The notes under the pieces are model-generated. The model was not told the DNA's origin. It worked only from the letters and a program-made list of their open reading frames with translations, and searched no databases. Of a stretch of 64,000 nt of DNA, positions 2,365-56,454 are shown piece by piece (the first letter of the stretch is position 1; each line of letters begins with the position of its first letter). Source of the DNA: Daucus carota subsp. sativus (lineage: Eukaryota > Streptophyta > Magnoliopsida > Apiales > Apiaceae); assembly GCF_001625215.2 (NCBI RefSeq), contig NC_030384.2:45604390-45668389 (forward strand), read 5' to 3'. Both the position numbers and the translations under genes were made by a program.

Positions 2365-2659
2365 ATTAATTACACTCATAAATTTCCACAAGAGACCAAG
2401 GATTACATTCATAAACAATTAAGCTAGGCTACATGAGATGAAAGTCAAAGTAAATAGCATCTCATACAATAAAGGCATATTAATGTGCATCATGAATTGA
2501 GGCACTGCCCTCACATACATACATGATACACTCATTACTCATCACTTGCCCACATTAGCCTGTCATGTTTCACTCCATAAAAACCACCGTCACCTTAGCA
2601 ACACCTCACACGCTCACAACCCTCTCAATATAATACTCTCCCACAATCTTTCTCTCGCT

Positions 2660-2717
2660 TCCCACCATTTTCTCTTCCTCTCTCTCTTTATAAATCTCTC
2701 TCTCTCTCTCTCTCTCG
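2660..2717 (+). repeat. Pyrimidine-rich tract with (TC)n microsatellite in OFP leader
   Basis: A CT-rich run ends in an uninterrupted TC repeat that stops 8 nt before the ATG at 2725. It contains TTTATAAAT near 2688. Pyrimidine patches next to transcription starts are common in plant promoters, so this is probably core promoter or 5' UTR. The repeat should be length-polymorphic. Confidence 0.7.
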
Positions 2718-2724
2718 AGCAACA

Positions 2725-3255
2725 ATGTCACACAGGAAGAAGCTAACGGTGAGAAATGTGACCGTGAACCTGGGCTGTGGAAGCTGCAGCAGGACATCAA
2801 GGCTCTTATCCAACATCTTCAACCCTAAGCCCAAGCCCATCCACAAACCTCTCCCATCTTTCCGACAGGCCCACAACCCATCCTACTCCTCCACCAGCTC
2901 ATGGCAAACAGCCGACACCTCCACGTACTATTCCGACAGCACTGACTCCGACATTCGCAGCCTGCGAGCCGTCCAAGGTTTCGGAAAAATCGGCGGAGAA
3001 AGCCTCGCTGTCGAAAAGGACTCCGAAGATCCTTACCTTGATTTCCGACAGTCAATGCTCCAGATGATTCTAGAAAACGAGATTTATTCCAAGAACGATC
3101 TCAAAGAGCTCCTCAACTGTTTTCTCCAGCTCAACTCGCCGTATCATCACGGTATCATCGTCCGTGCCTTCACCGAGATTTGGAACGGGGTCTACACGGG
3201 TCGGGCCGGGTCATCCACCAACATGCATGGAGTTTACAAGTCACGTGACTATTAG
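2725..3255 (+). CDS. OVATE family protein (short OFP6/OFP8-like)
   Basis: Intronless gene for a 176-residue OVATE family protein, a plant-specific transcriptional repressor family that binds TALE homeodomain (KNOX/BELL) and TRM proteins and shapes organ growth. The C-terminal OVATE domain (DUF623) covers about residues 98-156, with the hallmark DPYLDFRQSM, then LLNCFLQLNSPYH and GIIVRAFTEIW. The N-terminus is basic (SHRKKLTVR), followed by LGCGSCSRTSRLLSNIF, which resembles the Cys-containing leader of the OFP6/7/8/10 group. The middle is rich in Ser, Thr and Pro and probably disordered. The ATG is the first in frame after the TC microsatellite, and family members are usually intronless. The subgroup is judged from motifs, not from a tree. 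Confidence 0.92.
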   Translation: MSHRKKLTVRNVTVNLGCGSCSRTSRLLSNIFNPKPKPIHKPLPSFRQAHNPSYSSTSSWQTADTSTYYSDSTDSDIRSLRAVQGFGKIGGESLAVEKDSEDPYLDFRQSMLQMILENEIYSKNDLKELLNCFLQLNSPYHHGIIVRAFTEIWNGVYTGRAGSSTNMHGVYKSRDY

Positions 3256-5760: not shown

Positions 5761-5765
5761 ACTAC
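5761..5765. repeat. Target site duplication ACTAC (left)
   Basis: ACTAC precedes the left LTR directly and recurs at 11339-11343 after the right LTR. A 5-bp duplication is the usual size for LTR retrotransposon integrases. Confidence 0.9.
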
Positions 5766-5988
5766 TGTTATGTAAAAATATATGTAGAAAGAAAGTTGAG
5801 AGAGCTAGACAAGAGAAAAGAAGTAGACATAATTGTATTATTCATCTCATCACATTGCAAGCTCAACAAGTGGCTTTTATAGGTCCTTGGTAGATAAGTT
5901 ACAAGACAAGTGAAAAGTCAAAAGTCACATACATTATTGATAGGTCAATCCAAGAGCCAAAAGTCATCCACCTTTATATTTCATAACA
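5766..5988 (-). repeat. LTR, left copy (3' LTR in element sense)
   Basis: 223 bp, TGTTATG...CATAACA, with 7-bp inverted termini. Read on the minus strand it contains TATAAAAG near 5874-5881, a plausible TATA box for the element's own promoter. It is nearly identical to 11116-11338. Confidence 0.93.
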
Positions 5989-5999
5989 CTCCCCCTTGG
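5989..5999 (-). other. Polypurine tract of the LTR element
   Basis: On the minus strand CCAAGGGGGAG directly abuts the LTR start. This is the position and composition expected of the plus-strand primer used in reverse transcription, and it fixes the element's orientation. Confidence 0.8.
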
Positions 6000-6606
6000 A
6001 TGACTTGTATCAACGTCATGCCTCGTTAAAACCTTACTAGGAAAAACCCAGTGGGAAAAACCCTAGTGAAGGAAAAAGAGTACATGAGTTGTACAAAATA
6101 AAAACATATCGTTTATGTCTCCCCCTCGTCACGATATAACTATAAAAATCAGTAAATATGTCGAAGTATGCTCATCCCGTGTACTAATTTCTCGAAATGA
6201 GTGGTAGGAAGTGCCTTTGTGAAGAAATCTGTTGGATTCCTTTAATCATCATTCCTTGCATGTGATGCTGCCTGCAACAATTAAATTCATAGCAAAAGAA
6301 AATATCCACTATAATTTATTCAACTTTTGATCCCCTATTTCTTTACGCCTGCAAAATTAGCTTAAAACTTTATTGGAATATGTTAGTGGAGATCGAATAA
6401 AATCACTTTGTAAGTTCAGGATTAACACGCTCTTAAAGCGAGCGATCCCTTAACAATGAACACTAACCGAAAGCGGAGACTTACTTTAAATAATTATGTC
6501 AAACCATGTATGATAAAACATGTCATAGTTTAGTTAGATACGGTACCTCAGGACTGAGAATTTCTTTCAAGCGTTCAGAAAAGTCAGTGTACCATCGTGT
6601 ATTTAT

Positions 6607-9451
6607 AATCCTTCTGGGATTCCCATATGACAACATATCATTCATCTAAGAGTAATTCTTCTTTCAATATATACACCAAAAAACACTTTATCACATAATA
6701 TAACATCAGGTGCAACTCAATTCAATGTTAACTAGAAACACATTCTAGTTTCCATCTGCTCTGGCCAGAGACTTTATGAGTTGTCACCTATAGATATACA
6801 ATGATAACACGTATTTGTCCAGAATCCTTTTTCCATTTGAGAGGGTATAGTTCTCGAGAGTTTATTATACTGCTTCTGGCAGTTAAGATCCTTCTAGGAT
6901 GATTATTGTCAAGTGGGTCATATAAAACTTAAATTGAACATTCACATATTGCGGGATTATTTCGCAATCAAATAATCATTTCCACCACAAATCCTATTAC
7001 TCTTCATAACCAACACAAGGTTATCATACAATTATTTGAGCTTTACATATCTATAATTTCATTTTATTTTCGCACAAATAATCATACATATCCCACTGAC
7101 TTAATACCTTTGGGTGTGTGAACTGCAGTTTCAAAAATTTCTCTCTACTTTTTTTAGAGATAATGATTCATAGGGCGCACCACTTTCACAACTTCTGGTG
7201 TGAGAGGACTACTGGTCCAAATAATTTTTCTTTGTAATTGCCTCAATTATATCATTTATTCTTTGGCCAATGTTATCAATATTTTCTAACAAATTCTGCT
7301 TCATGATCCTCATTGTTATCAATAACCTCAAGTTCTATAAATATCATCGACGTCGATTCGATTTATGGTTCCACTTCATTCTGGACAAGGCATAATATAT
7401 CGAAATCTCAATAGTTTTCATTACTTTTATTTTCTCTAATTTGTCATGTCTATAATCTCTTCTGGAGATCCTTCAATGCCATGTCTATAATCTCTTCCGG
7501 AGATCATTCAAAAATTATTGATTTCTCAATCTAGCCATCATCAATTATTGCTCCTTTTCAACCTTTTTTTTGTATAAGATATGGAACCAACTTGCCTATC
7601 ACGCTTCAGGCGTTCTTTAGACATAGTAGTATCTTGAGGTTGTCCTTCTGCGACATTTAAATCATAGGAGCATATGTAGCCGGTGGCCATGACATATATT
7701 TTCTGGTCATCAAAATGAATTATCTTATGAACTTCTGGTTCATATTCTTTGTTTTGAGGATCAAGATGAGGCAATGATAACTCATTCTCATATTTCTACT
7801 TTCACCGGCTATTTATTTTCTCCCCCTGATTTTGGGAAAACAAACTCATTATATCAAGTCACAACAAATACATATTGATGATTCCAAATGCACTCATATG
7901 TAATATATATCCAATTGAGGAATCGATCTTACTAATGTGGTGGAAAATCTGTGATGACCAAAAAATTTATTTAAATGGGGAGAGATTATGAAAATTTTGT
8001 TTATATGATGATGTGAATCGATAAATATGTGATACAAAATAATCACTAATTTGAGATAATACTCATTATGAGATGCACCAGCATTATAAACATATATTTT
8101 AAATAATGAATCTCGCATACGTCAGGCTACGAGTTGATAATACTTTTGTATACAACCATATATTTCACAAAATATCTCACTGTTCAACAATATGATATTT
8201 TCATCTCATGCCATAACTTCATTAATTTATTCTCAAAGATGATAAATCACAATTATATCTTTGCTGGTGATCAATTTTCCTTTATAAGCAAATAATATAT
8301 GTACAACTGAGAAGAAGAATCTACAGGTTCTTCAACAAAAGTGCATATAAAATTACTATTCGCATCTTTAACAAATTAAGGTGGCTTAGCTAGTCAGGCC
8401 AAACTGTAAACTTATAAGTAAACTTCTGGTTTACTTCAAAATCAATTTCAATTATGCTTATTATAAATTAGTGGAGAATCTTTATCCAAAATACTTTTAG
8501 TGTCATGAATTAGACTCACTATTTAAAGGCCTTAATATCTCAATGCGATAAATTATATAAATTTTATTCTTCAATTTTCTTGGGAGAGAATAATTGCATC
8601 AATACTTTACATGCTCTTCTGGAGTAAAATGTACTTCTGAGAGTAGATAAAAATATACATGCTCTTCGAGAGCCTTATGCATGCTCTTCCGGAGCTTTAT
8701 ACTTTCTCTTCCCGAATCTTATATTTAGAAAAACTATAATGAGGCATCCTATATAATCCTCCCCTTTGGATGACTCATTTTAGATATGAAATATTGATAC
8801 TAGTCATCTTTATATCAATCAAGAGAAATATTCCTTATACACATAATAAGAATATGACTTAGAGAATTTGTAATGTCATGACCATTGCTACTATCATGGT
8901 TGATATCCTTTGATTTTCTAATACTGTCACATAATGGTACGATATCTTTTGTTGCAATTCATAATCATTTCATCAATAATTTAAATTTAGTAAACCACAT
9001 TTAGTCACGATATCAACTCATGCATTTAACACCCCAAATATTTCATCAATTGCATAATATTGTATCTGCGGGACATAATATAATATTTATTTAATCAAAA
9101 TCTATTATATCCAAATATTATACTATTCTTTATATAGAACCATCCTTCAGGGATATTATATCATCTAGGATAAACTCATGATTTGAATATTATTCTACTA
9201 TATCACTCTTCTGGAATGTAATCAAGTGTTTAAACACACAACATTGATTTTATAGACCTCGCTCAATATTATATTTATGAAAAATATGATCAATATCCAT
9301 TAGAAATTTCACAAAAATTAAACACAACGTCAATGTGTGATGATAAAAGAATTTTATTATATAGAGACAACTTCTAGTTGTTATTACGTGCAACTTCTGG
9401 GTGTAATTATATACAATCAATCTATTAAAAACAACATCAAATAGGTGTTGT
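6607..9451 (-). repeat. Dispersed hairpins with a shared five-base loop (TTCTG on +, CAGAA on -)
   Basis: Small perfect or near-perfect stems whose sequences differ but whose loops agree. Stem/loop, plus strand: 6607-6621 AATCC/TTCTG; 6869-6883 ACTGC/TTCTG; 6888-6900 ATCC/TTCTA; 7186-7203 TCACAAC/TTCTG with one bulge; 7455-7469 ATCTC/TTCTG; 7490-7504 ATCTC/TTCCG; 7726-7744 TATGAAC/TTCTG; 8416-8436 AAGTAAAC/TTCTG; 8612-8626 TGCTC/TTCTG with one G-T pair; 8661-8673 GCTC/TTCGA; 8683-8695 GCTC/TTCCG; 9142-9154 ATCC/TTCAG; 9367-9381 ACAAC/TTCTA. Other foldbacks nearby have other loops: 6730-6750 (8-bp stem, ACACA), 7206-7218 (GGAC, TACTG), 8314-8333 (TACAG), 9431-9451 (8 bp, AAATA). No family explanation is known to me. 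Confidence 0.8.
7541..7774 (-). pseudogene. Copia pol remnant (integrase to reverse transcriptase linker)
   Basis: The minus-strand frame reads HLDPQNKEYEPEVHKIIH and later VAEGQPQ..SKERLKRDRQVGS. This resembles the Copia polyprotein linker, where a LDP..ECE.EVQ.IIHLQ block is followed by PEGQ and a basic KRGRP.GSKD segment. The part between is diverged, and no frame extends into a protease, integrase core, reverse transcriptase or RNase H motif. It is therefore a decayed fragment, but it confirms the Copia assignment and the minus orientation. Confidence 0.7.
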
Positions 9452-10354
9452 CGATAATACCAACATCATGTAGCTCAAGTGAGATAAAAAAAAAAAAATC
9501 ACTTTTACAAATGTTAAGTTTTAAATCAATTTTAAATTTAAAGACATGGAGTGATATTAACATTCTATCAACATCAAGAATATCACATAGAGATCACATA
9601 ATATCACTTATTTGAAGCATGAATATGTAATATATTTAATATGTGAGCAAGACATAATGTGTGCCCATAAGCCATCTCTTCCAAACCATAATATATAAAG
9701 TTTTGACTATCTCAAAATTTGGGATGTCCTCTAAGAAGAAAGATTAAATATGGACAAGTAAGGATCCGTGTATCATATATTAATCCGAGATACATAGACA
9801 AAGACTAGAGGTAAGGTCATACATAATGTACATAGATAAGAATGATATAGAATTTTTATCTCTCTCATACAAAAATTAGCCAAGTCATTAATAAAGCTTA
9901 CTATCAATTTAAACTCATATGAAATAGATAATGACTTGAGAAAAATCAATTTTAGGATAAAGTGGAGCACATATGACTCATGACCTTTTAAAGATTAAGA
10001 CGACTTACTATATATTAATCATGTACAATTTATGGATTATTAATAAATTATGATTTCTTTTTTATGGATTCATAATAAATTGATCACATGTACACAAATA
10101 TAAATTTTTCATATATCCTATTTGTCAAATTAAAAATAATGTAGTGTACGAGAAAGAGAACGCAAGTGAAAATCATCACATGAATTCTACACATATTTTG
10201 AGAGTGACATAATATATAAATCTATAGTAATCCACCGAAGGTAATCATCAAAATTATATATAATGATCACTGAAAATATAATATGGCAGAAAAAATAGCA
10301 ACATGATTTTCATTAGTAAAAAAAAACAAGTATCTCACACATATTCAGATTCCA

Positions 10355-10520
10355 AGAGAGCCGAGAACAGAGATCCAAAATATTTTATCCAATTCCAAAA
10401 GGGTCCAAAATAGTTTATTGAAATCCAAAGAATTGTTCAAATCCAAAAGAGTCAAAATAATTTACTCAAATCCAAAAATATCCAAATAATGTGTTTAAAT
10501 CCATAAGAGACTAAAGCATA
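10355..10520 (-). repeat. Degenerate tandem array, ATCCAAAAGAGTC-type units
   Basis: About five diverged units of roughly 20-35 bp, each built on (A)ATCCAAAA(G)..TCCAAAATAATTTA, lie in the gag-side part of the LTR element. No reading frame is maintained through them. Confidence 0.6.
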
Positions 10521-11097
10521 TCCATATCAATCTATACTAACTCCAAAAACTATAAACATCCACATCCAAAATCGATTATTTCAAAAGCTATTCCAAAAGC
10601 AAACTTAAAAACATGTAAACATCTAAAATGATTCAATTTATGTATACTTGGATGAATTCACAACTTACATGTATCATATCAAGAATACTAACTAGTTTAA
10701 GTTATAGAAAATTAAGGGACTATTCCAAAAATATCCAAAACTTCTCAATTTTAATGTACAACTAATTTAGTATAATTTTAGGAGAATATCAAAACTAGCA
10801 TCACTCAAACATATAAATTTAGTATAGTACCATAAAATGAAAAGAATGGTGAAGGGAGGCTTACCTTAAAATCTTATGATTTGATGATCAATTCATTTGA
10901 GTTCAAGATTCCTTACTTCAAGAATGTCGTCTTTGAAAGACCACAAATTCGGAAGAACAACAAACTTCTCGTAGCAAGAACAATCTTCATCGATCCTCTT
11001 AAAATATCAAGTACAAGAATTTGTGAACAAAGCAGGAGAGTAGTCTTACAAACAAAATAGAAGAGGGAGCCGTACAACATATAACAAAATGAAAAAG

Positions 11098-11115
11098 CAT
11101 ATCGTGCTGATAACG
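11098..11115 (-). other. Primer-binding-site-like sequence of the LTR element
   Basis: Directly inside the right LTR the minus strand reads CGTTATCAGCACGATATG. The TATCAG core resembles the initiator tRNA-Met complement TGGTATCAGAGC used by many plant elements, but the match is partial, so the priming tRNA is unresolved. Confidence 0.55.
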
Positions 11116-11338
11116 TGTTATGTAAAAATATATGTAGAAAGAAAGTTGAGAGAGCTAGACAAGAGAAAAGAAGTAGACATAATTGTATTATTCATCTCAT
11201 CACATTGCAAGCTCAACAAGTGGGTTTTATAGGTCCTTGGTAGATAAGTTACAAGACAAGTGAAAAGTCAAAAGTCACATACATTATTGATAGGTCAATC
11301 CAAGAGCCAAAAGTCATCCACCTTTATATTTCATAACA
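11116..11338 (-). repeat. LTR, right copy (5' LTR in element sense)
   Basis: 223-bp near-identical copy of 5766-5988, followed by the second ACTAC target duplication at 11339-11343. In element sense this copy would drive transcription toward lower coordinates. Confidence 0.93.
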
Positions 11339-11343
11339 ACTAC

Positions 11344-12161
11344 GATATTGATAGAGTCGTCAAATCACTGATATGGGAGCTTAAATGAGATGTACTCGCA
11401 GCGAGGCTATCAAAATGTGTTCAGATTGCATTTTAAGAAAAATTACATAATATTGAAGTCACGGGAACAAGCTAAAAAAAATTGATTTCTTATTTAAAAT
11501 AAAAAAGTAGATTAAAAGTGAGAAGTAAGTAAGTTAATAAAGTGTTTAGAAAAAAATAAAAAATTGAGAAAAAAATTAGCATTCTTAACTTCTTAAAATG
11601 CTTCTACTTATTCATACAAACGGGTCAAGGAAAACTTCCGCTTCTTTTAAACAAACGGACACACTATATATTTTTGGATAAAACATTAATACTTAATAAA
11701 ATGTGTTATTATTTCAAATTATTATATTTATTTTATTATTTATGTAATTTAAAAAATCACAGTTTATTTTTCAAACAAACTATCTAATCAAATTAAATAA
11801 AACCATAAACCCTCTGCTTCGCTTTTCCTTGTCCTCTATTAAAATCCACATCTTATTCAATTATAATAAGTATCATACATGTTCACAACTTTTTGATTTT
11901 TTTTAAACAAAATTAACATATTTAGTATATAATTTATCATATTAATTTAATATGGACGAGAAAACCGAAATGGAATGGTATGTTAATGATCTCTTCCATA
12001 TTCCATGTTAACGAAGAGCCCCATTGTTTTTGTGATAGATCGGAACTTTTTGTAAATTGTTGGGAAAACTGAAACGGAAGAGTACGTTTTTTTAAGGGAA
12101 GAAAAGTATGTTAATTTATCATATATTCTGACTTATAAGAGGTCACTAGATTCTATATTCA
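11344..12161. other. Intergenic DNA with a degraded MITE relative
   Basis: The stretch 11460-11660 aligns by eye with the interior of the 2138-2364 MITE. Shared strings include AAGTGAGAAGTAA, AGTTAATAAAGTGTTT and CAAACGGGTCAAG. Its termini are too diverged to place. The rest is AT-rich with no gene. Confidence 0.55.
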
Positions 12162-14530: not shown

Positions 14531-14988
14531 GGGGTGTATTGGATTGGGATTTTAAAGCATTTTTTTGCATTCATGAAATCCGAGGGTATTCGATTGAGAT
14601 TGTTTGAAATCCATTAAAATCCTGAGGTATTCAATTGGGATTTTGAACTATGCTACATAATCTAGTGGTATTCAATTGGGATTTTAAATTATGCTTTAAA
14701 ATCCGATGGTATTCAATTGGGATTGTTTAAAATCCATTAAAATCTGATGGTATTCAAATGCTGATGGATTTTTTTTCATTTCATAAAATGATGGATTTTG
14801 TGACATTCTTCATTGTATTTTAAGTTTTTTGAAATCCCACCAAATTCGATGGGATTTTGAAGCATTGTACCTAAATCCTATCAACTCTGCGACATTTCAT
14901 CAAGAATCCGCAAAAAATCAAAATCCCATACAATCCATTAAAATCCATAGACTAAAAACAATGCATTAAAATCTCAATTGAATACATA
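14531..14988. mobile_element. MITE-like element with internal GTATTCAATTGGGATTTT repeats
   Basis: The left end GGGGTGTATTGGATTGGGAT and the right end, whose reverse complement begins TATGTATTCAATTGAGAT, form imperfect inverted termini. The interior holds about five direct copies of GGTATTCAATTGGGATT (near 14588, 14627, 14667, 14709 and 14750), spaced about 40 bp apart. Target duplications are not clear. It is non-coding. Confidence 0.6.
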
Positions 14989-18665: not shown

Positions 18666-19595
18666 TTATGTCGAACCACGATGATCAAGAGCCGCGTCCT
18701 TTTCTTCTTCTTCCTCTTCCTCCTCTTCTTCCTCGAATAAAGTCAATAAACAAGGAGCCGTGGAATAATTAGAAGAGAACGAGAGAGCCGAAACAGGAGA
18801 CTGAGTAATAACAGTGGCGGATGAAGAAGAGGAGTTGTTATGATCATAATCAGTACTACTCGAAGACGATGAAGTCGGCGAAGAAAACGAAGAAGAAGCC
18901 GAAGAGTACTCGAGAGAGACCATCAAGTCAACGAATGCTCCAACTATATAGCCATGGTTGCTTTTCCCGTTGACTTGTAAATACCATTTCAAGAGTTGAT
19001 GAAGAGACTCCCAATCATCCTTCACATTGAAGCCATTGGCTTCCACCATCTCCTCCATCGATTTCTTGAAATCGTCGTACGGATCTCTCGAATCCATCTC
19101 CATCAACAATACTTTATCACTCGAACAATATTTATATCTCTCGTTACTTGTGGCACAATCAATTCTATTAGTAGCACTACTCGTAACATCACCACTCTTG
19201 TTGTCATTACTCTTTGTAAGCTGATGCTGATCCGAAACTATGCAACTAGTTGTTTCTCCTGCGTGATTATCGAAGAACAGCCTCTCGGACGAGGTTTTCG
19301 CGCCCCGAATTACACTCTCTATGGTCTGATCCGCACCCTCGGCTAAATATTCCTCCTCTTCCAGCACTACGGTAGTTGACAAAATGCTAGAAGATTGTTC
19401 ACACACCGATGATGAGGTGAGGAACCTGGAGTCATTAGCAACAAAGACGGAGTTCATGATCTTTTCGGCTCGAAAAGAGAGTGTCTTGGGGCTACCGCAA
19501 TTAGGCCAAGGCCACGAAGAAGCCGAAGAAGAAGAAGATAGTATTTGTTCAGTGGGCTTGAATAGGAATGGAATGAGCTTCATTTTCCTCCCCAT
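18666..19595 (-). CDS. OVATE family protein (OFP13/OFP18-like)
   Basis: Intronless gene for a 309-residue OVATE family repressor. The start is the ATG at 19595 (MGRKMKLIPFLF). The open frame extends 21 codons further upstream only through a TTG, and the family normally starts M(G)KKMKLPFLF. Motifs in order: the KMKL leader, SPKTLSFR near residue 35, TIESVIRGAKTSSERLFF at 91-108, and the OVATE domain at about 163-229 (LLMEMDSRDPYDDFKKSM, LLKWYLQVNGKSNHGYIVGAFVDLM). These conserved blocks fit the OFP13/15/16/18 group, whose members regulate organ shape through TALE homeodomain partners. The tail is unusual: long Ser runs, then 11 consecutive Glu, encoded by simple GAA/GAG repeats that are likely length-variable. 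Confidence 0.9.
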   Translation of the reverse strand: MGRKMKLIPFLFKPTEQILSSSSSASSWPWPNCGSPKTLSFRAEKIMNSVFVANDSRFLTSSSVCEQSSSILSTTVVLEEEEYLAEGADQTIESVIRGAKTSSERLFFDNHAGETTSCIVSDQHQLTKSNDNKSGDVTSSATNRIDCATSNERYKYCSSDKVLLMEMDSRDPYDDFKKSMEEMVEANGFNVKDDWESLHQLLKWYLQVNGKSNHGYIVGAFVDLMVSLEYSSASSSFSSPTSSSSSSTDYDHNNSSSSSATVITQSPVSALSFSSNYSTAPCLLTLFEEEEEEEEEEEKDAALDHRGST

Positions 19596-22500
19596 TGAAG
19601 TGAGCAGATGGGAGGTTAGGAATGATAAATGATGGTATTTGAATGATGAAAGTAACAAGTGGTGTGAGTTTGTGAAAAAGTGGGTGTTTTTATGGTGGGC
19701 ATTAATGGAAGGAGTCAGATGGGTTTGTGAAATTCATTTAATGTGGTTTAGTATCAAGAGCATGGAGGAGGAGGGACTAGGGAGAGCTGGAAAATGGTGA
19801 GAGAAGTTAAGTTGGATGAAGAAGATATACTAGTATTAGAATTCAAAGTTTGGTGGGGTTGGGTTTTCTTTATTTTATACAGTTTGTATATGTGTATTTA
19901 ATATTTGGCCTATGTATAGTTCGTTGATATTAATGCTGTCAATCTGTCCAGAAGTTTTGAATTTGTAATTTTCAGTATGAATTTTAACATGCACATCAGC
20001 ACATGTGTTATCCGGATAATATTTGGATTGCTTCGTAATCAACCATATTATACCAAAAAGAGATGGCAGCTGTATTTTAGAAGCATCACACTTCACTCAA
20101 ATGTTAATAACTTTTAAGCATTTTAGAAAAATAATTAAATTTGAATCCTAAAAACATATGTTAACATCATATGTTTTAACAGGAAAAAAGTGTGGTACAC
20201 CTTAATTTTAAGTTATATATATATATATATAATAAATGATACGTATGGTATTATAGAACGAAAGTTACTTATTTATAAAAAATTTCGCGCCCAACTTTTT
20301 TCCCACTCGAAATATGTTATCGTCAGTAGTATGTTATGGATTAACCGTCAAAATAATATACTCACTCGTCAACTGAATATCTTTGCAATTAAATTAAATA
20401 AATGAGGATAACTAACTCTGCAGTAGTGCTATGTTGCAATTTTATCAAAATTTTAAAGTGATAAAAAGATATACAAATAAATAAATCGAACATTATTTTT
20501 AGCGCCAGTTTTGCTGAAATCTCGCCTGGATATGAGTATATAATTTCTGCTGCATAACCATTTGAAAAATGCAGGAGAGAGATATCGTTTAGGCCAAGTA
20601 AGATTTAGCAGGGACCAGCCCATTGATACTGTTTCACTGTTTCGTTTAGTCTATAAATTAAACTAATAGGATTACAAGAGTTATGATGTAAATTACTATA
20701 GCAGTTATTTGGTTGCGCCGTGTAGTATTTAAGTTTTGCTTGCACTGGCAGCTTTAGAAATAAATGACAACCAGCAGAAACCAACACTGAGGTTTAAATT
20801 CTCTATTTCAAATTTGTATATCTTTTTGTCCGGCCTAGGAGAGTAGATTATTAATGTCGAGCATCCGAAGACCGAATCCATTTACGTTTTCTATCTATAT
20901 ACTTCAGTTGTTGTTTCAAATCGCCGAAAGTGCTGAACAAGAGTACGATGATGAACAAAACAATGTGACAACTAAACAAATCACTGAAGAGGCAACAAAA
21001 ATATGCACATTCAAATCAGTTGCAGTCAGAATTATCTATTCTTTAAAAAAAAAAAAAAAATACGGTTCTATAAGAAGCTTTAGTTGCATATATGTACCCA
21101 TACTTCAAAAATTTGATGATTTGGCCGATTAATCATCTCATTAATTGTTATTAGTTACTCAGTTGATTTGATTTTTTAAATTAGACGATAGCTCTGTTGA
21201 TTAATTATGATTTCATACCTTGAGTTTAGAAGATTACATTTACTTCACACTCATGATGCGTATGCTAATAAATAAATAAATAATGGAATGTAGTCCTAGC
21301 TATATTTTTATCTTTGAGATAGGAGTATTTATACTTAAAAAGTCAATTATGCATACGCATAATACGATTAAAATACGTGAGATAATGTAATTACTAATTA
21401 TATATGCCGCTCCCTAGATGATACTTCTGGAGAGGCGTTGGCTTTTCATTATTTGAGTTCGACCATATCTTAATGATTTGCGATTTAGTGAATAAGTTAA
21501 ATGAGTTTAGTCAAATTGCAGGCAGGTTCCTCATGTCCTAATAAAAAAATGAGAATCTTTCTCCGTATCACTAGTACAATTAATCTAGAAAATACAGAAA
21601 AGCACAGCACATGATCTTAATGTGCATGTATGATTTCTGCACCGGTTCCTCTTGCCCACTTAAATATTCAACTACTATCTTACCATGCCGCAGCTTCAAA
21701 TTTAAAATTCGATATCCCTCGTAATCTCTTATCTGCGTCCTAAAGGCAAGTTGATCGTCGATATGGACCAACCGACCAAGCATGTTTGCCTAGGCTCTTC
21801 TGACTTTCAAGGGTTTTAACCTAAGCAGATTGAGTTTTAACCTAAGGTTTTACTTTTAACCCCAGCATGTTTTTTTGATCGATGAACGACGCTTGATCTT
21901 TCTAGAATCACTCGTATATAAATTTGAATAACCTGTAGTAGATACAAATTACAAGAGTTTCATATATCAACTTTAACTAGATCTTGTAATTTTTAGAGTA
22001 CCAGGCTTGCATTTTCCAGAATCATCGTAGTAAAATAACTTGCAGCGAATCAAAAGGTTTCGAAATTAGATGTTTGATCAAACATCGGGAATTTGAACTA
22101 TTACCGAATTGAAATTACTATCGGGCACTGCTCATGAAGACTACTTGACCACATGAATCATCTAATACTGATATTTGATAGTTAGCGGATGAAGATAATG
22201 GTTTGAATCAGGAAAATGGTAGTCTAAAAAAATTAATATAGGTTTTTAATTGATGGATTAATATGATCTATTTAAAGTATAAAAAATTAAACAAACAATT
22301 ATGTATCAAGTAGATTCATCAAAAATGAATAATTTAAAATATTTTATTAAACAACTAACTCATTTCACTAACAAATAACGGATAACCGCTAATTATCAAA
22401 ATTCATCCCAAGTCTTCTAGAACCGAGCATTTGAAATCAAGAACACGCATAGCATTTAAATTTTCACTATTTATCTTTATCAAAACTATGTTGTCAATAT

Positions 22501-39890: not shown

Positions 39891-40076
39891 AGCCCAATAA
39901 TACCCTACAATAACGAGCCCAGCCCAATGGAGAAAACCCTTGCAGATCAGTCTTGATATATAAACATCACAAACATCACAAACACTACCAAGCCACCTCC
40001 CTGAATCAAACCCCTCTTTCACTCTCCTCTCCAAACCCTAGCAAGCTCCTCCCCGCCTCCTCAATTCACATTCACC
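39891..40076 (+). promoter_or_regulatory. Ribosomal-protein promoter with site II and telo-box motifs
   Basis: AGCCCA (site II, TGGGCT on the other strand) occurs at 39891-39896, 39916-39921 and 39921-39926. TATATAA lies near 39957, and AAACCCTA (telo box) is at 40033-40040 in the leader. Plant ribosomal protein and other translation genes typically combine site II elements (bound by TCP factors) with telo boxes, giving high expression in dividing cells. The ATG context ACCATGG is optimal. Confidence 0.75.
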
Positions 40077-46370: not shown

Positions 46371-47281
46371 TTAAGCCAAAGGTTCATCTTCAGGATACTG
46401 AAATAATTTAAAAGCCGAATTAACAATCCCAAATCCCCCATCAACAAACAAATTCTGGCCGCTTACGTACTTAGCTTCGTCGCTGGCGAGATAAAGAGCT
46501 GCATTAGCCACATCCTCGGTCTTGAGAGTCACACCCTTCAAATTGGCCAAAGAGTTCATCACGCCTTCAAGAATTTCATCATCTTGAATCCCCACAAAGC
46601 TCCTAGCCAAAGGAGTCGCCATCGCGTAAGGCGACAGACAATTGACTCGTATGCCGAATTGTCCTAGCTCGACTGCCAAGTTCTTGGTCAGTCCCAAGAC
46701 AGCATGCTTGGAGGCGCAATAAGCATGTGATGCTGCGCCACCGATGTTAGAGCTCAAGCTAGAGGTCGAAAGTATGCAGCCACTTCGAGCCGGGACCATG
46801 ACTCGAGCCGCGTGTTTCATGCCTAGGAAAACAGCGGTCACGTTGATGGCCATGACCCGCTCGAAATCAGACTTGAGGTTGTCCAAAATTCGAGGCTTGT
46901 TGGGATCGGAGATGCCAGCGTTGTTGAACATGATGTCAAGTTTTCCGTAGGCTGAAACTGCTTTGTCTACTGCATCTTTTATGTGGTCTTCATTTGTGAC
47001 ATCACAATGGACGTAAATAGCGTTGGACTTTCCCAATGCTTCGACAACTGTGTGCCCTAGTTCATCTTGAATATCCGCGATAACAACCTTAGCTCCGTGC
47101 TGAACGAAGATCCTCGCGGTGCATTCACCTATGCCGCTGGATCCTCCGGTGATCAGGGCGACCTTACCCTCCAACCTATATATTATCCAAAATAAAAAAA
47201 ATAATTCTTAATAAAATTTTATGTGTAAAGTCATTTAGCTATGAGTTGCAATGAGCTTACAGTTTGTACTTACCTTGCCAT
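46371..47281 (-). CDS. SDR110C short-chain dehydrogenase (secoisolariciresinol dehydrogenase-like), 2 exons
   Basis: Coding exons 47281-47274 (8 nt, ATGGCAAG) and 47175-46371, joined across a 98-nt GT-AG intron, give a 270-residue protein beginning MARLEGKVALITGG. It is a classical NAD-dependent short-chain dehydrogenase: TGGSSGIG at 12-19, D37 after the second strand (prefers NAD over NADP), DV at 61-62, NNAG at 87-90, and the catalytic set N114, S142, Y155 and K159 (YCASK). [18 protein letters not shown] and DEAKYVSGQNLFVDGGF are typical of the plant SDR110C family, whose members oxidise secondary alcohols such as secoisolariciresinol, borneol, xanthoxin or zerumbone precursors. The substrate cannot be deduced. 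The usual 10-15 residue leader before RLEGKV is missing. A broken paralogue lies at 50201-51091. Confidence 0.9.
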
Positions 47282-49035: not shown

Positions 49036-50200
49036 ACCCTCAAATTCCCTTTATGTATCCACCCTCATGCCAAGTGTTCAGACAGACCGTAGGTGCTGAT
49101 CCTATGATATTAAGGATGCAGTTCAATCCTCTCATACTAGGCCGAAGCCATCAGCACTGAACCAGGAGCTTCTAAGCTTTTTTTCTTTTGACAGACAGGG
49201 AGCTTCTAAACTTAATAACAATAGGATTGTTATTACATTACCCTCAGGCACGAATGTCATTGTTTGCAAAGGGCAATAGAGGACTAAATATCGGCAAGTT
49301 GGCCACGAGTTCAGTGATCTTTTTGCCTATTAACCCGATTCTAATGTATGATTCATTTAATCACTGTATGGTTTGGAAAAAGCTCCCATAAAATAGTTTT
49401 TCTGAACTTCTAACAGCACATTGATTAGCATATATACACAGGTTGTATCCAATTGAAATTTAACTACAACTCGTCTGATTTGAAATGGGTTTTATCCAAT
49501 GTCTACTACTATGGTTATCATCTATGCGACTATGAGGATGATTAATAATATGTGGCAGCAGTGTTCATAACGTTATTCACATCAAGACAATGCTTCTAAA
49601 GTAGACATTGGTTCTGTGAAGATATATCTGAGGGACTGATGTTCCCATGTATTCTCTCTTTCAGAAAAACAAATACATACCATTGTCTTACAACAGGAGG
49701 TCTACCACATTACCTCATCTACTAGTCTGTCTAAAACAACCATTGATCATATCACACCTTTACTCATATACCAATGTCAAGCGTCATTAAATTTATTTTA
49801 AATAGCTCAAAAGAGTGTACTTTCGAACAAGTTACAAACTATAATCGGCAATCACTATGCCACTGAGAGTAAATGCATATCTAAATTAAGGAATTAGCAC
49901 TATTTTTCCTCTTTCCTGGATTATTTACATCAATTTAACTTCAACAATCAATTTCAGACAGCATCTTGTAATTAACAATGTTTTCCAGTGTATAACAATT
50001 GAAAACACTTATCTATCAACATTTAAAAATCAGAATACATGGCAGAGAAGCAACTGAAAACACAAGGACTGTAGGTAAATGTTCAACTTACTCCTCCTGG
50101 TCTAAACAAAGCTTATTTGTGACAAGTCATGAAAAGCGTAGCATAGCAGTAGGCAGTAGCTTAGTGTCGCAAGTTGTAATTTGGGCAGATCGGCAGAATA
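49036..50200. other. Intergenic DNA between SDR gene and its pseudogene
   Basis: No gene was recognised. A CTAGTATGAGAGGA-like string near 49125-49141 (minus strand) recalls the rRNA sarcin-ricin loop but stands alone. The frame at 49999-50214 has no motif. Confidence 0.4.
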
Positions 50201-51091
50201 CTAAACCATCTTAAAAGATGAAACCACAACCCCCAATCCCCCATCGATAAAAAGGTTTTGACTGCTGACATACTTAGCCTCATCACCAGCAAGATAAAGG
50301 GTTGCATTGGCTACATCCTCAGTCCGGAGGGTCACGCCCTTCAAATTGGCAAATGAGTTCAAGAAATTTTCAAAGTCTTCATCATTTTCAACCCCTAGAC
50401 AACTGACAAGTCTTACCAAAAGGAGTCGAAACTCCATAAGGCGATAAACAATTGACTCGATATTCCAAATTGTCCGAGCTCAACCGCCAAGTTTTTGGTT
50501 AGTCCTAATATTGCTTTGAGGCAGTATAAGCATGTGACGCTGCACCAGCGCGATTAGAGCATAGGCTAGCTGTTAAAATTATGCAACCACTTCGAGCTGC
50601 ATGTTTCATGCCTAAAAAAACACCAATTACATTGACAGCAAAGACACGCTGAAAATCAGACTTTAGGTTGTCAAGAATTCGAGGCTGGTAAGGATCGATG
50701 GCGCCAGCGTTGTTGAAAACATGATATCAAGTTTTCCGAAAGCTGAAATTGTTATGTCTACAGCATCTTTAAGATGATCTTCATATGTAACATCACAGTG
50801 GACATAAATAGAGTTCACTTTTCCTAATGCTTCAACAACTGTATGCCCAAGTTCATCTTGAATGTCGGCAATAACAACCTTAGCTCCATGCTGGACGAAT
50901 ACCCTCGCGCAGCATTCACCAATGCCACTAGATCCTCTGGTGATCAGGAAAAATATAACAAAATAGTATTAACTTTTAACATTTAACCATTTTTTTTCTA
51001 AAGCCAATATATAATTAGGTTTCAAATTAAGCCTCACAGTTTGTACTAACCTTCTTGTGATTGCTGCTGCAAGTGAATCGGTGTTTGCCAT
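50201..51091 (-). pseudogene. SDR110C dehydrogenase pseudogene (paralogue of 46371-47281)
   Basis: Exon 1 is intact (51091-51051) and reads MANTDSLAAAITR before a GTTAGT donor, the canonical SDR110C leader. The 5' end of exon 2 that would encode LEGKVA is missing: after the segment matching SSGIGE the sequence runs into unrelated AT-rich DNA with no acceptor there. Further damage relative to the intact copy: about 2 extra bases near 50715 (NNAG region), 4 missing bases near 50510, an 18-base in-frame loss near 50590, and a shifted frame near 50400-50420. The C-terminal part ([29 protein letters not shown]) stays readable at 50201-50437. It ends without the EDEPLA tail of the intact gene. Confidence 0.88.
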
Positions 51092-56205: not shown

Positions 56206-56454
56206 CTCCCTCTGTCCCATTTAATTGTATACGTTTCTTTTCAACTATTCGATACTCATTTCAATGCTCTTATAAAATATAGTTCCGTAACTTATTTTTG
56301 AGATTTTCTTTTTCTGAATAAAAATATAACATCCAAACTTTAATTCAGAAAAAGAAAATTTTAAAAATAAATTACACAACTACACTTTACAGGAGCATTA
56401 AATTCCGTGCCGCGTCCCGTCCCCCAATGTATACAATTCAGGGGACGGAGGGAG
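56206..56454. mobile_element. Stowaway-like MITE
   Basis: 249 bp, ends CTCCCTCTGTCCCATTTAAT and GGGGACGGAGGGAG, flanked by TA (56204-56205 and 56455-56456). TTGTATACGTTTC near the left and AATGTATACAATTC near the right are also inverted. It lies about 450 bp upstream of the coiled-coil gene start. Confidence 0.88.

Follow-up and report, generated by a model that had tools for sequence, protein, structure and literature searches.

The Element and Its Coding Capacity

The window analyzed here is a stretch of 64,000 nucleotides (64 kb) of the carrot genome (Daucus carota subsp. sativus, contig NC_030384.2), in which a long terminal repeat (LTR) retrotransposon occupies positions 5766-11338. The sense of the element is the minus strand, and its interior of about 5.1 kb (5989-11115) carries an array of small hairpins that share a loop and a closing pair on stems of differing sequence. 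As is characteristic of LTR retrotransposons, the element has two LTRs that begin with TG and end with CA (in plus-strand orientation, TGTTATG...CATAACA), and a short target-site duplication flanks it. Comparison of the two 223-bp LTRs places the 3′ LTR, in element sense, at 5766..5988 and the 5′ LTR at 11116..11338, both on the minus strand, and the duplicated sequence, ACTAC, lies at 5761..5765 on the left and at 11339..11343 on the right. The LTRs are 99.55% identical (222/223 positions) and the 5-bp duplication is intact on both sides; therefore, this copy was recently mobile, and the element is a young insertion.

The sense of the element follows from two minus-strand sequences next to the LTRs. 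The putative polypurine tract (PPT), AAGGGGGAG, at 5989..5997 adjoins the LTR end at 5988, and the likely primer-binding site (PBS), CGTTATCAGCACG, at 11103..11115 lies directly after the 5′ LTR, which begins at 11116. Their roles are assigned from position, since placement of PPT and PBS beside the LTRs is the usual layout of LTR elements. A blastn comparison of the element with the 64-kb window returned its own LTRs and otherwise weak matches at E >= 0.007 only.

No stop-to-stop frame longer than 92 aa overlaps the element, and the longest sense frame of the interior, with 84 codons, is not above chance, as an equally long frame arises in 33% of 300 shuffles. An intact gag-pol open reading frame is absent, which marks the element as non-autonomous. 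Pfam searches with 16 short pieces, 15 of them from among the 80 sense pieces of at least 20 codons, gave no plausible match: ten pieces had nothing at E <= 10 and, of six searched at E <= 1, three had nothing and three had weak, unrelated matches. Thus neither Gag nor the other domains of the Copia order (Gag-PR-IN-RT-RNaseH) could be recognized in these pieces. The original prediction, made from the bare sequence, had placed one hairpin (7726-7744) within readable pol codons. This finds no support, since the 84-codon frame that contains it is of chance length and matches nothing in Pfam at E <= 1.

An Excess of Hairpins with One Loop

On the plus strand of the interior, a perfect Watson-Crick stem of at least 4 bp (4-8 bp) encloses 12 of the 62 TTCNR pentamers, while 2,000 dinucleotide shuffles give a mean of 0.42 such hairpins and a maximum of 4. 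With stems of at least 5 bp, seven are observed against 0.13 in the shuffles. Thus the earlier claim of constant-loop, variable-stem hairpins stands, more firmly than it was first put, with a strict count of 12 in place of 13 and the same stem lengths of 4-8 bp, and it survives the dinucleotide shuffling that had been proposed as a check. The expectation of 0.1 hairpins that accompanied the claim was somewhat low, and the excess is unaffected by this.

The excess belongs to a particular loop length as well as to a particular loop sequence. Among the 48 interior pentaloop hairpins with stems of at least 4 bp, 13 have loops starting with TTC, and the runner-up trinucleotides account for three each. 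Loops that start with TTC and are 3, 4, 6, 7, 9, or 10 nt long yield no hairpin in the interior, those of 8 and 12 nt yield two each, and those of 11 nt yield three. Outside the element, the plus strand has six TTCNR hairpins with A/T-rich stems, none of them closed by a C-G pair, whereas this pair closes each of the 12 strict hairpins inside the element, even though the closing pair was no criterion of the search. The minus strand has six TTCNR hairpins in the whole window, one of which lies in the block 8001-12000. When 5.1-kb blocks, loop lengths of 3-10, and loop trinucleotides were scanned together, the only classes among the best 25 entries to outscore this one were of TA/AT type, in the blocks starting at 40001 and 42501. 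The C-G closing pair and the confinement of the motif to one strand of the element had been overlooked in the original prediction.

In element sense, the repeated unit is the heptamer C-YNGAA-G, the outer C and G of which close the stem. The interior contains 17 copies on the sense strand and none on the antisense strand, against a mean of 1.23 and a maximum of 5 in 2,000 shuffles, so that the heptamer is about 14-fold over-represented on the sense strand; the hairpins are assigned to this strand because of the same 17-to-0 count. CCAGAAG alone occurs nine times, where dinucleotide composition predicts 0.15 copies and its frequency elsewhere in the window 0.35. The first loop position, scored at 16 sites, is occupied by C 13 times and by T three times, and the second can be any base; Y, GAA, and the C-G pair are fixed at these sites by the way they were selected. 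Variants with a closing pair other than C-G are at background frequency, with two copies on the sense strand, one on the antisense strand, and 27 elsewhere in the window. Sixteen of the 17 heptamers lie within the 3′ 66.5% (P = 0.009, with a boundary set post hoc at the first array site), in agreement with the 3′ two-thirds location described earlier.

A different reading of the repeated TTC, as a heat-shock element (TTCNNGAA), was rejected by eye because the bases that follow TTCNN vary with the stem.

Complementary Flanks and Covariation

For a test of flank complementarity, the 17 sites were picked by the heptamer alone and the stems were ignored. Over the three pairs adjoining the heptamer, 44 of 51 cells are Watson-Crick, compared with 15.6 +/- 4.0 (maximum 33) when the right flanks are re-dealt among the sites, and none of 20,000 permutations is as high. 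Dropping three tandem sisters (7465, sister of 7500, and 8670 and 8622, sisters of 8692) leaves 36 of 42 cells paired against 13.1 +/- 3.5, a value attained by none of 50,000 permutations. All three adjoining pairs are Watson-Crick at 12 of the 17 heptamers, or at 13 if one G-U is allowed, and several sites carry partial stems. Outside the element the window contains 38 heptamers (20 on the plus and 18 on the minus strand); three of them have two of the pairs, and not one has all three.

In a gap-free alignment of the 17 sites, in which the invariant C, GAA, and G are a consequence of site choice and by themselves no evidence, the covariation score is 0.712, whereas shuffles give 0.196 +/- 0.052 and slid registers 0.05-0.19. 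Changes on both sides of a pair occur in 35 of 102 cells, where shuffles give 13.8. The other hairpin-rich classes of the window, with their TA runs in the blocks from 40001 and 42501, might suggest that the array is an accident or an artefact of composition. This we consider exceedingly improbable, since the counts of hairpins, heptamers, and flank pairing lie beyond every shuffle and permutation, as do the covariation score, the paired cells, and the cells changed on both sides; for this copy, chance and composition are refuted by these controls.

Could the paired flanks have arisen without function? Besides selection on the RNA, the original prediction had offered a mechanism that copies an inverted flank around a fixed core. 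An example would be fold-back template switching at the heptamer during reverse transcription, in which the left flank is copied inverted to the right. Such a process would produce perfect, variable stems around a fixed core, and a strand bias would be expected if it acted on the sense RNA or on first-strand cDNA. It is a possible source of the paired flanks, but it leaves the roughly 14-fold excess of the heptamer unexplained, as it needs a heptamer that was abundant beforehand, and composition gives 1.2 copies against 17. The several partial stems also speak against it, although decay could yield these as well. In our judgment, fold-back copying is improbable. Selection at the RNA level is well supported inside this copy by the shared heptamer, the unrelated and complementary stems, the changes on both sides of the pairs, and the restriction to one strand, and it is the best account of the array.

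Another origin of the heptamers would be coding. They could descend from Pro-Glu codons (CCN GAA G) that belonged to the pol of an ancestor, with some of the stems being accidents of the codons or having been selected in the coding RNA of an autonomous ancestor. Many sites translate as x-P-E-G/E/V/A in that frame, and the adjacent pair 6897/6879 presumably resembles a conserved Copia reverse transcriptase (RT) motif; this resemblance, and that of the stretch 6241-6152 to what we take to be the RNaseH end of Copia elements, are leads only. On the other hand, codon identity fails to predict paired flanks, which are complete at 12 of 17 heptamers here and at none of the 38 elsewhere. Furthermore, sites 7738 and 7610 of the longer open frame differ in frame by coordinate arithmetic, and the 16 short pieces searched against Pfam, a part of those available, gave no plausible match. 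A decayed pol, even if it were the true origin, accounts for the heptamers but not for their complementary flanks, and we give the codon-relic explanation little chance.

To guard in part against circularity, we trained a covariance model on the eight sites of the 3′ half only; this cross-half model encodes the loop as well as the pairing and hence is no test of pairing alone. Its best five non-training matches in the 64 kb are the 5′-half sense hairpins at 8418, 9203, 8611, 8681, and 9366. Of the other four sites, 9140 ranks below one site outside the element (13264), 8659 is at background, and 9389 and 10911 are absent from the matches at E <= 5. With a model built from all 17 sites, the top 15 matches all lie within the element, and 10911 and 7187 fall among the background. 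Rfam yields no match at gathering score in the 64 kb. Its sole match at E <= 1 within the element is to a bacterial small RNA family and scores 27.2 bits, where the cut-off is 81.

The Individual Hairpins and Their Folding

Stems and loops are written here in element sense, all sites are on the minus strand, and the value given with each is the closing-pair probability from local folding. The hairpin AATCC-CAGAA-GGATT (6607..6621; 0.43) lies in a 35-nt piece that folds otherwise at minimum energy. It is followed by ACTGC-CAGAA-GCAGT (6869..6883; 0.93) and by ATCC-TAGAA-GGAT (6888..6900; 0.77), the minimum-energy fold of which adds a U-A pair inside the loop; TAGAA loops are able to close by a further U-A pair in minimum-energy folding. 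A degenerate, bulged hairpin, TCACAC-CAGAA-GTTGTGA (7186..7203), is weak (0.14). Next come the tandem sisters ATCTC-CAGAA-GAGAT (7455..7469; 0.80) and ATCTC-CGGAA-GAGAT (7490..7504; 0.79), then ACGC-CTGAA-GCGT (7601..7613; 0.84). The sequence TGTC-(GCAGAAG)-GACA (7641..7655) is a possible degenerate hairpin with its closing pair unformed, and it is uncertain, as such variants are at background frequency. Closing-pair probabilities are high for TATGAAC-CAGAA-GTTCATA (7726..7744; 0.93-0.99) and for AAGTAAAC-CAGAA-GTTTACTT (8416..8436; 0.91-0.98).

A group of repeat sisters comprises the short, 3-bp hairpin CTC-CAGAA-GAG (8614..8624; 0.11), GCTC-TCGAA-GAGC (8661..8673; 0.19), and GCTC-CGGAA-GAGC (8683..8695; 0.24). 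Beyond these are ATCC-CTGAA-GGAT (9142..9154; 0.39), CATTC-CAGAA-GAGTG with one G-U pair (9204..9218; 0.61), and ACAAC-TAGAA-GTTGT (9367..9381; 0.73). Two heptamers have a pairing probability of about 0: CCAGAAG at 9394..9400, with mismatched flanks, and CTTGAAG at 10916..10922, which has no stem and is the sole site outside the array. In the sense RNA, then, the closing-pair probability exceeds 0.6 at 9 of the 17 sites. When 12 pieces were folded alone, z was -2 or lower in five, between -1 and 0 in six, and positive in one.

Other Features of the Window

The element contains a second array of a repeated motif in its 5′ part, where 12 of its 17 copies of the hexamer TCCAAA (as read on the plus strand; TTTGGA in element sense) fall within about 370 bp (10374-10739). 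Diverged repeat copies (80%) flank the element at 2153-2315 and at 11470-11629, the latter shortly past the right LTR. Elsewhere, a local duplication of 75% identity joins 46391-47157 and 50194-50948, the first of which overlaps a short-chain dehydrogenase gene; a degenerate repeat has four copies at 41-bp spacing (14576-14760); and a 143-bp segment (56260-56402) forms a long imperfect palindrome, matching its own reverse complement at 77%. The window is nuclear DNA of a land plant: six of eight open frames scanned match Pfam families (two Ovate, CAF1, ribosomal protein S17e, short-chain dehydrogenase, and Peptidase_S28), and two are without a match. The two Ovate-family open frames, 2599-3255 and 18666-19733, lie about 15 kb apart on opposite strands; Ovate proteins are not known outside plants.

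A viral contig collection contained no relatives of the PPT-LTR junction, the 3′ non-coding motif, or the degenerate RT motif, and it gave 26 pattern stretches for the 84-codon frame, none of which was confirmed. A collection of prokaryotic genome contigs likewise gave none for the 3′ non-coding motif and the degenerate RT motif. Since the collections searched were viral and prokaryotic, their silence says little about plants. The only contig to match a 17-base pattern across the LTR-PBS junction was set aside: it appears phage-like by eye, and its best R1 score, 13.3 bits, equals background.

What Might Read the Array

The analysis establishes the array and its excess over expectation, covariation between the sites, a bias toward one strand, the youth of the insertion, and the lack of any frame longer than chance. 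Selection as the cause, a protein as the partner, Gag as that protein, and packaging as the effect are inferred. We propose that the sense RNA of this young, apparently non-coding LTR element would display about 15 small stem-loops with the common loop C(YNGAA)G, the sequence of each stem being free provided that the stem pairs. Selection on the RNA may have kept the hairpins as a multivalent binding site, a single protein recognizing the loop and the closing pair. As the element apparently encodes no protein, its natural partner, and the most likely one, would be the Gag/nucleocapsid of an autonomous helper element, with host readers as the next candidates, and the hairpins would then mark the element RNA for packaging into helper particles. 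A selected multivalent protein site on the sense RNA, most likely for helper Gag and packaging, is the reading that we favor, at somewhat less than an even chance. It is tempting to go further and to suppose that a non-coding parasite built a protein-read hairpin code, C-YNGAA-G on arbitrary stems, in its 3′ RNA and so captures helper particles with a packaging array of the type found in single-stranded RNA (ssRNA) viruses; this stronger proposal is tentative and, on balance, unlikely.

Several observations weigh against the favored reading. Local folding is weak at 6617 (0.43), at 9151 (0.39), and at six sites of 0.24 or below, namely the 8622-8692 group (0.11-0.24), 7198 (0.14), and 9400 and 10922 (both about 0). 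Seven of the 12 pieces folded alone are not clearly better than shuffles, and those around 6616 and 8610-8705 favor other folds. The antisense strand is also able to form several of the same stems, and the comparison of G-U with A-C deviations (5 against 3 at depth 5, few cells) fails to single out the sense strand. Two of the five covariation measures are not above shuffles: the pairs changed on both sides, which 409 of 500 shuffles reach, and further pair types, which 113 of 500 reach. Clustering of the hairpins is not significant (5 of 15 gaps of 50 nt or less, P = 0.13), and the analysis concerns one copy of the element within the 64-kb window. In addition, the array sits in the 3′ part of the element, unlike the packaging sequences of yeast Ty1, which the available text of PMC5454406 places at the 5′ end.

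The same RNA array might be read by a host factor acting in export, stability, granules, or silencing, instead of by Gag. All of the covariation evidence fits this equally, and retroelement RNAs do carry host-read structures, such as the IAP/MusD transport elements (PMC12786077) and the Evade ENE (PMC12501189), as far as the available parts of these papers describe them. However, the host-read elements in those parts are compact rather than arrays of about 15 copies, and the window is without an Rfam match at gathering score. A host reader is unlikely in our estimation, while being the first alternative to a helper Gag.

RNA selection for packaging in plant LTR elements, above all in non-coding ones, appears to be little known. 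In the available text of a 2025 review (PMC12786077), host factors and classes of transcript are discussed, a motif for RNA packaging is not, and neither stem-loop nor hairpin occurs as a word. A literature search, covering part of the matching literature, surfaced no such hairpin array in an LTR element or in a large retrotransposon derivative (LARD). A short, defined loop on freely varying stems lends itself directly to tests by binding and probing and to computer searches of any plant genome. If the arrangement proved general, it would provide a sequence handle on the RNAs that an element's Gag accepts.

Comparison with Known Systems

Smaug/Vts1 hairpins offer a parallel in that a small, protein-read loop sits on stems of free sequence, the reader being putative in the present case. 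Their recognition loop is of the CNGG type, whereas the loops of the element are YNGAA, with A and not G at position 4, and none of the 12 strict hairpins has a CNGG loop. LARD-type and other non-autonomous LTR elements, which depend on proteins supplied by a helper and on signals in cis, share with this element the combination of a young LTR element and the lack of a frame longer than chance. LARD LTRs, however, are several kb long, and those of this element have 223 bp, so it is not a LARD by the length of its LTRs. LARDs are also marked by a non-coding interior that is conserved over numerous copies. The ENE of Evade/Copia93 (PMC12501189) and the 5′ structures of Ty1 offer a possible parallel as RNA structures that serve a Copia-type element; as described in the available portions of the sources, they are compact, single structures and not arrays of one loop.

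The closest likeness is to the packaging arrays of ssRNA viruses. In the available text of PMC3593212 and PMC7793301, the packaging signals of satellite tobacco necrosis virus are about 30 stem-loops with AXXA loops and varied stems, and those of enterovirus-E have purine trinucleotide loops, with GAA for enterovirus F. Like these, the array described here would consist of many short stem-loops dispersed over one RNA, with one degenerate loop motif in common and stems that vary. It differs in having a pentaloop of fixed length, YNGAA, closed by C-G, and in being carried by a plant LTR element. The array thus appears to resemble viral packaging signals in anatomy, a likeness that does not amount to membership.

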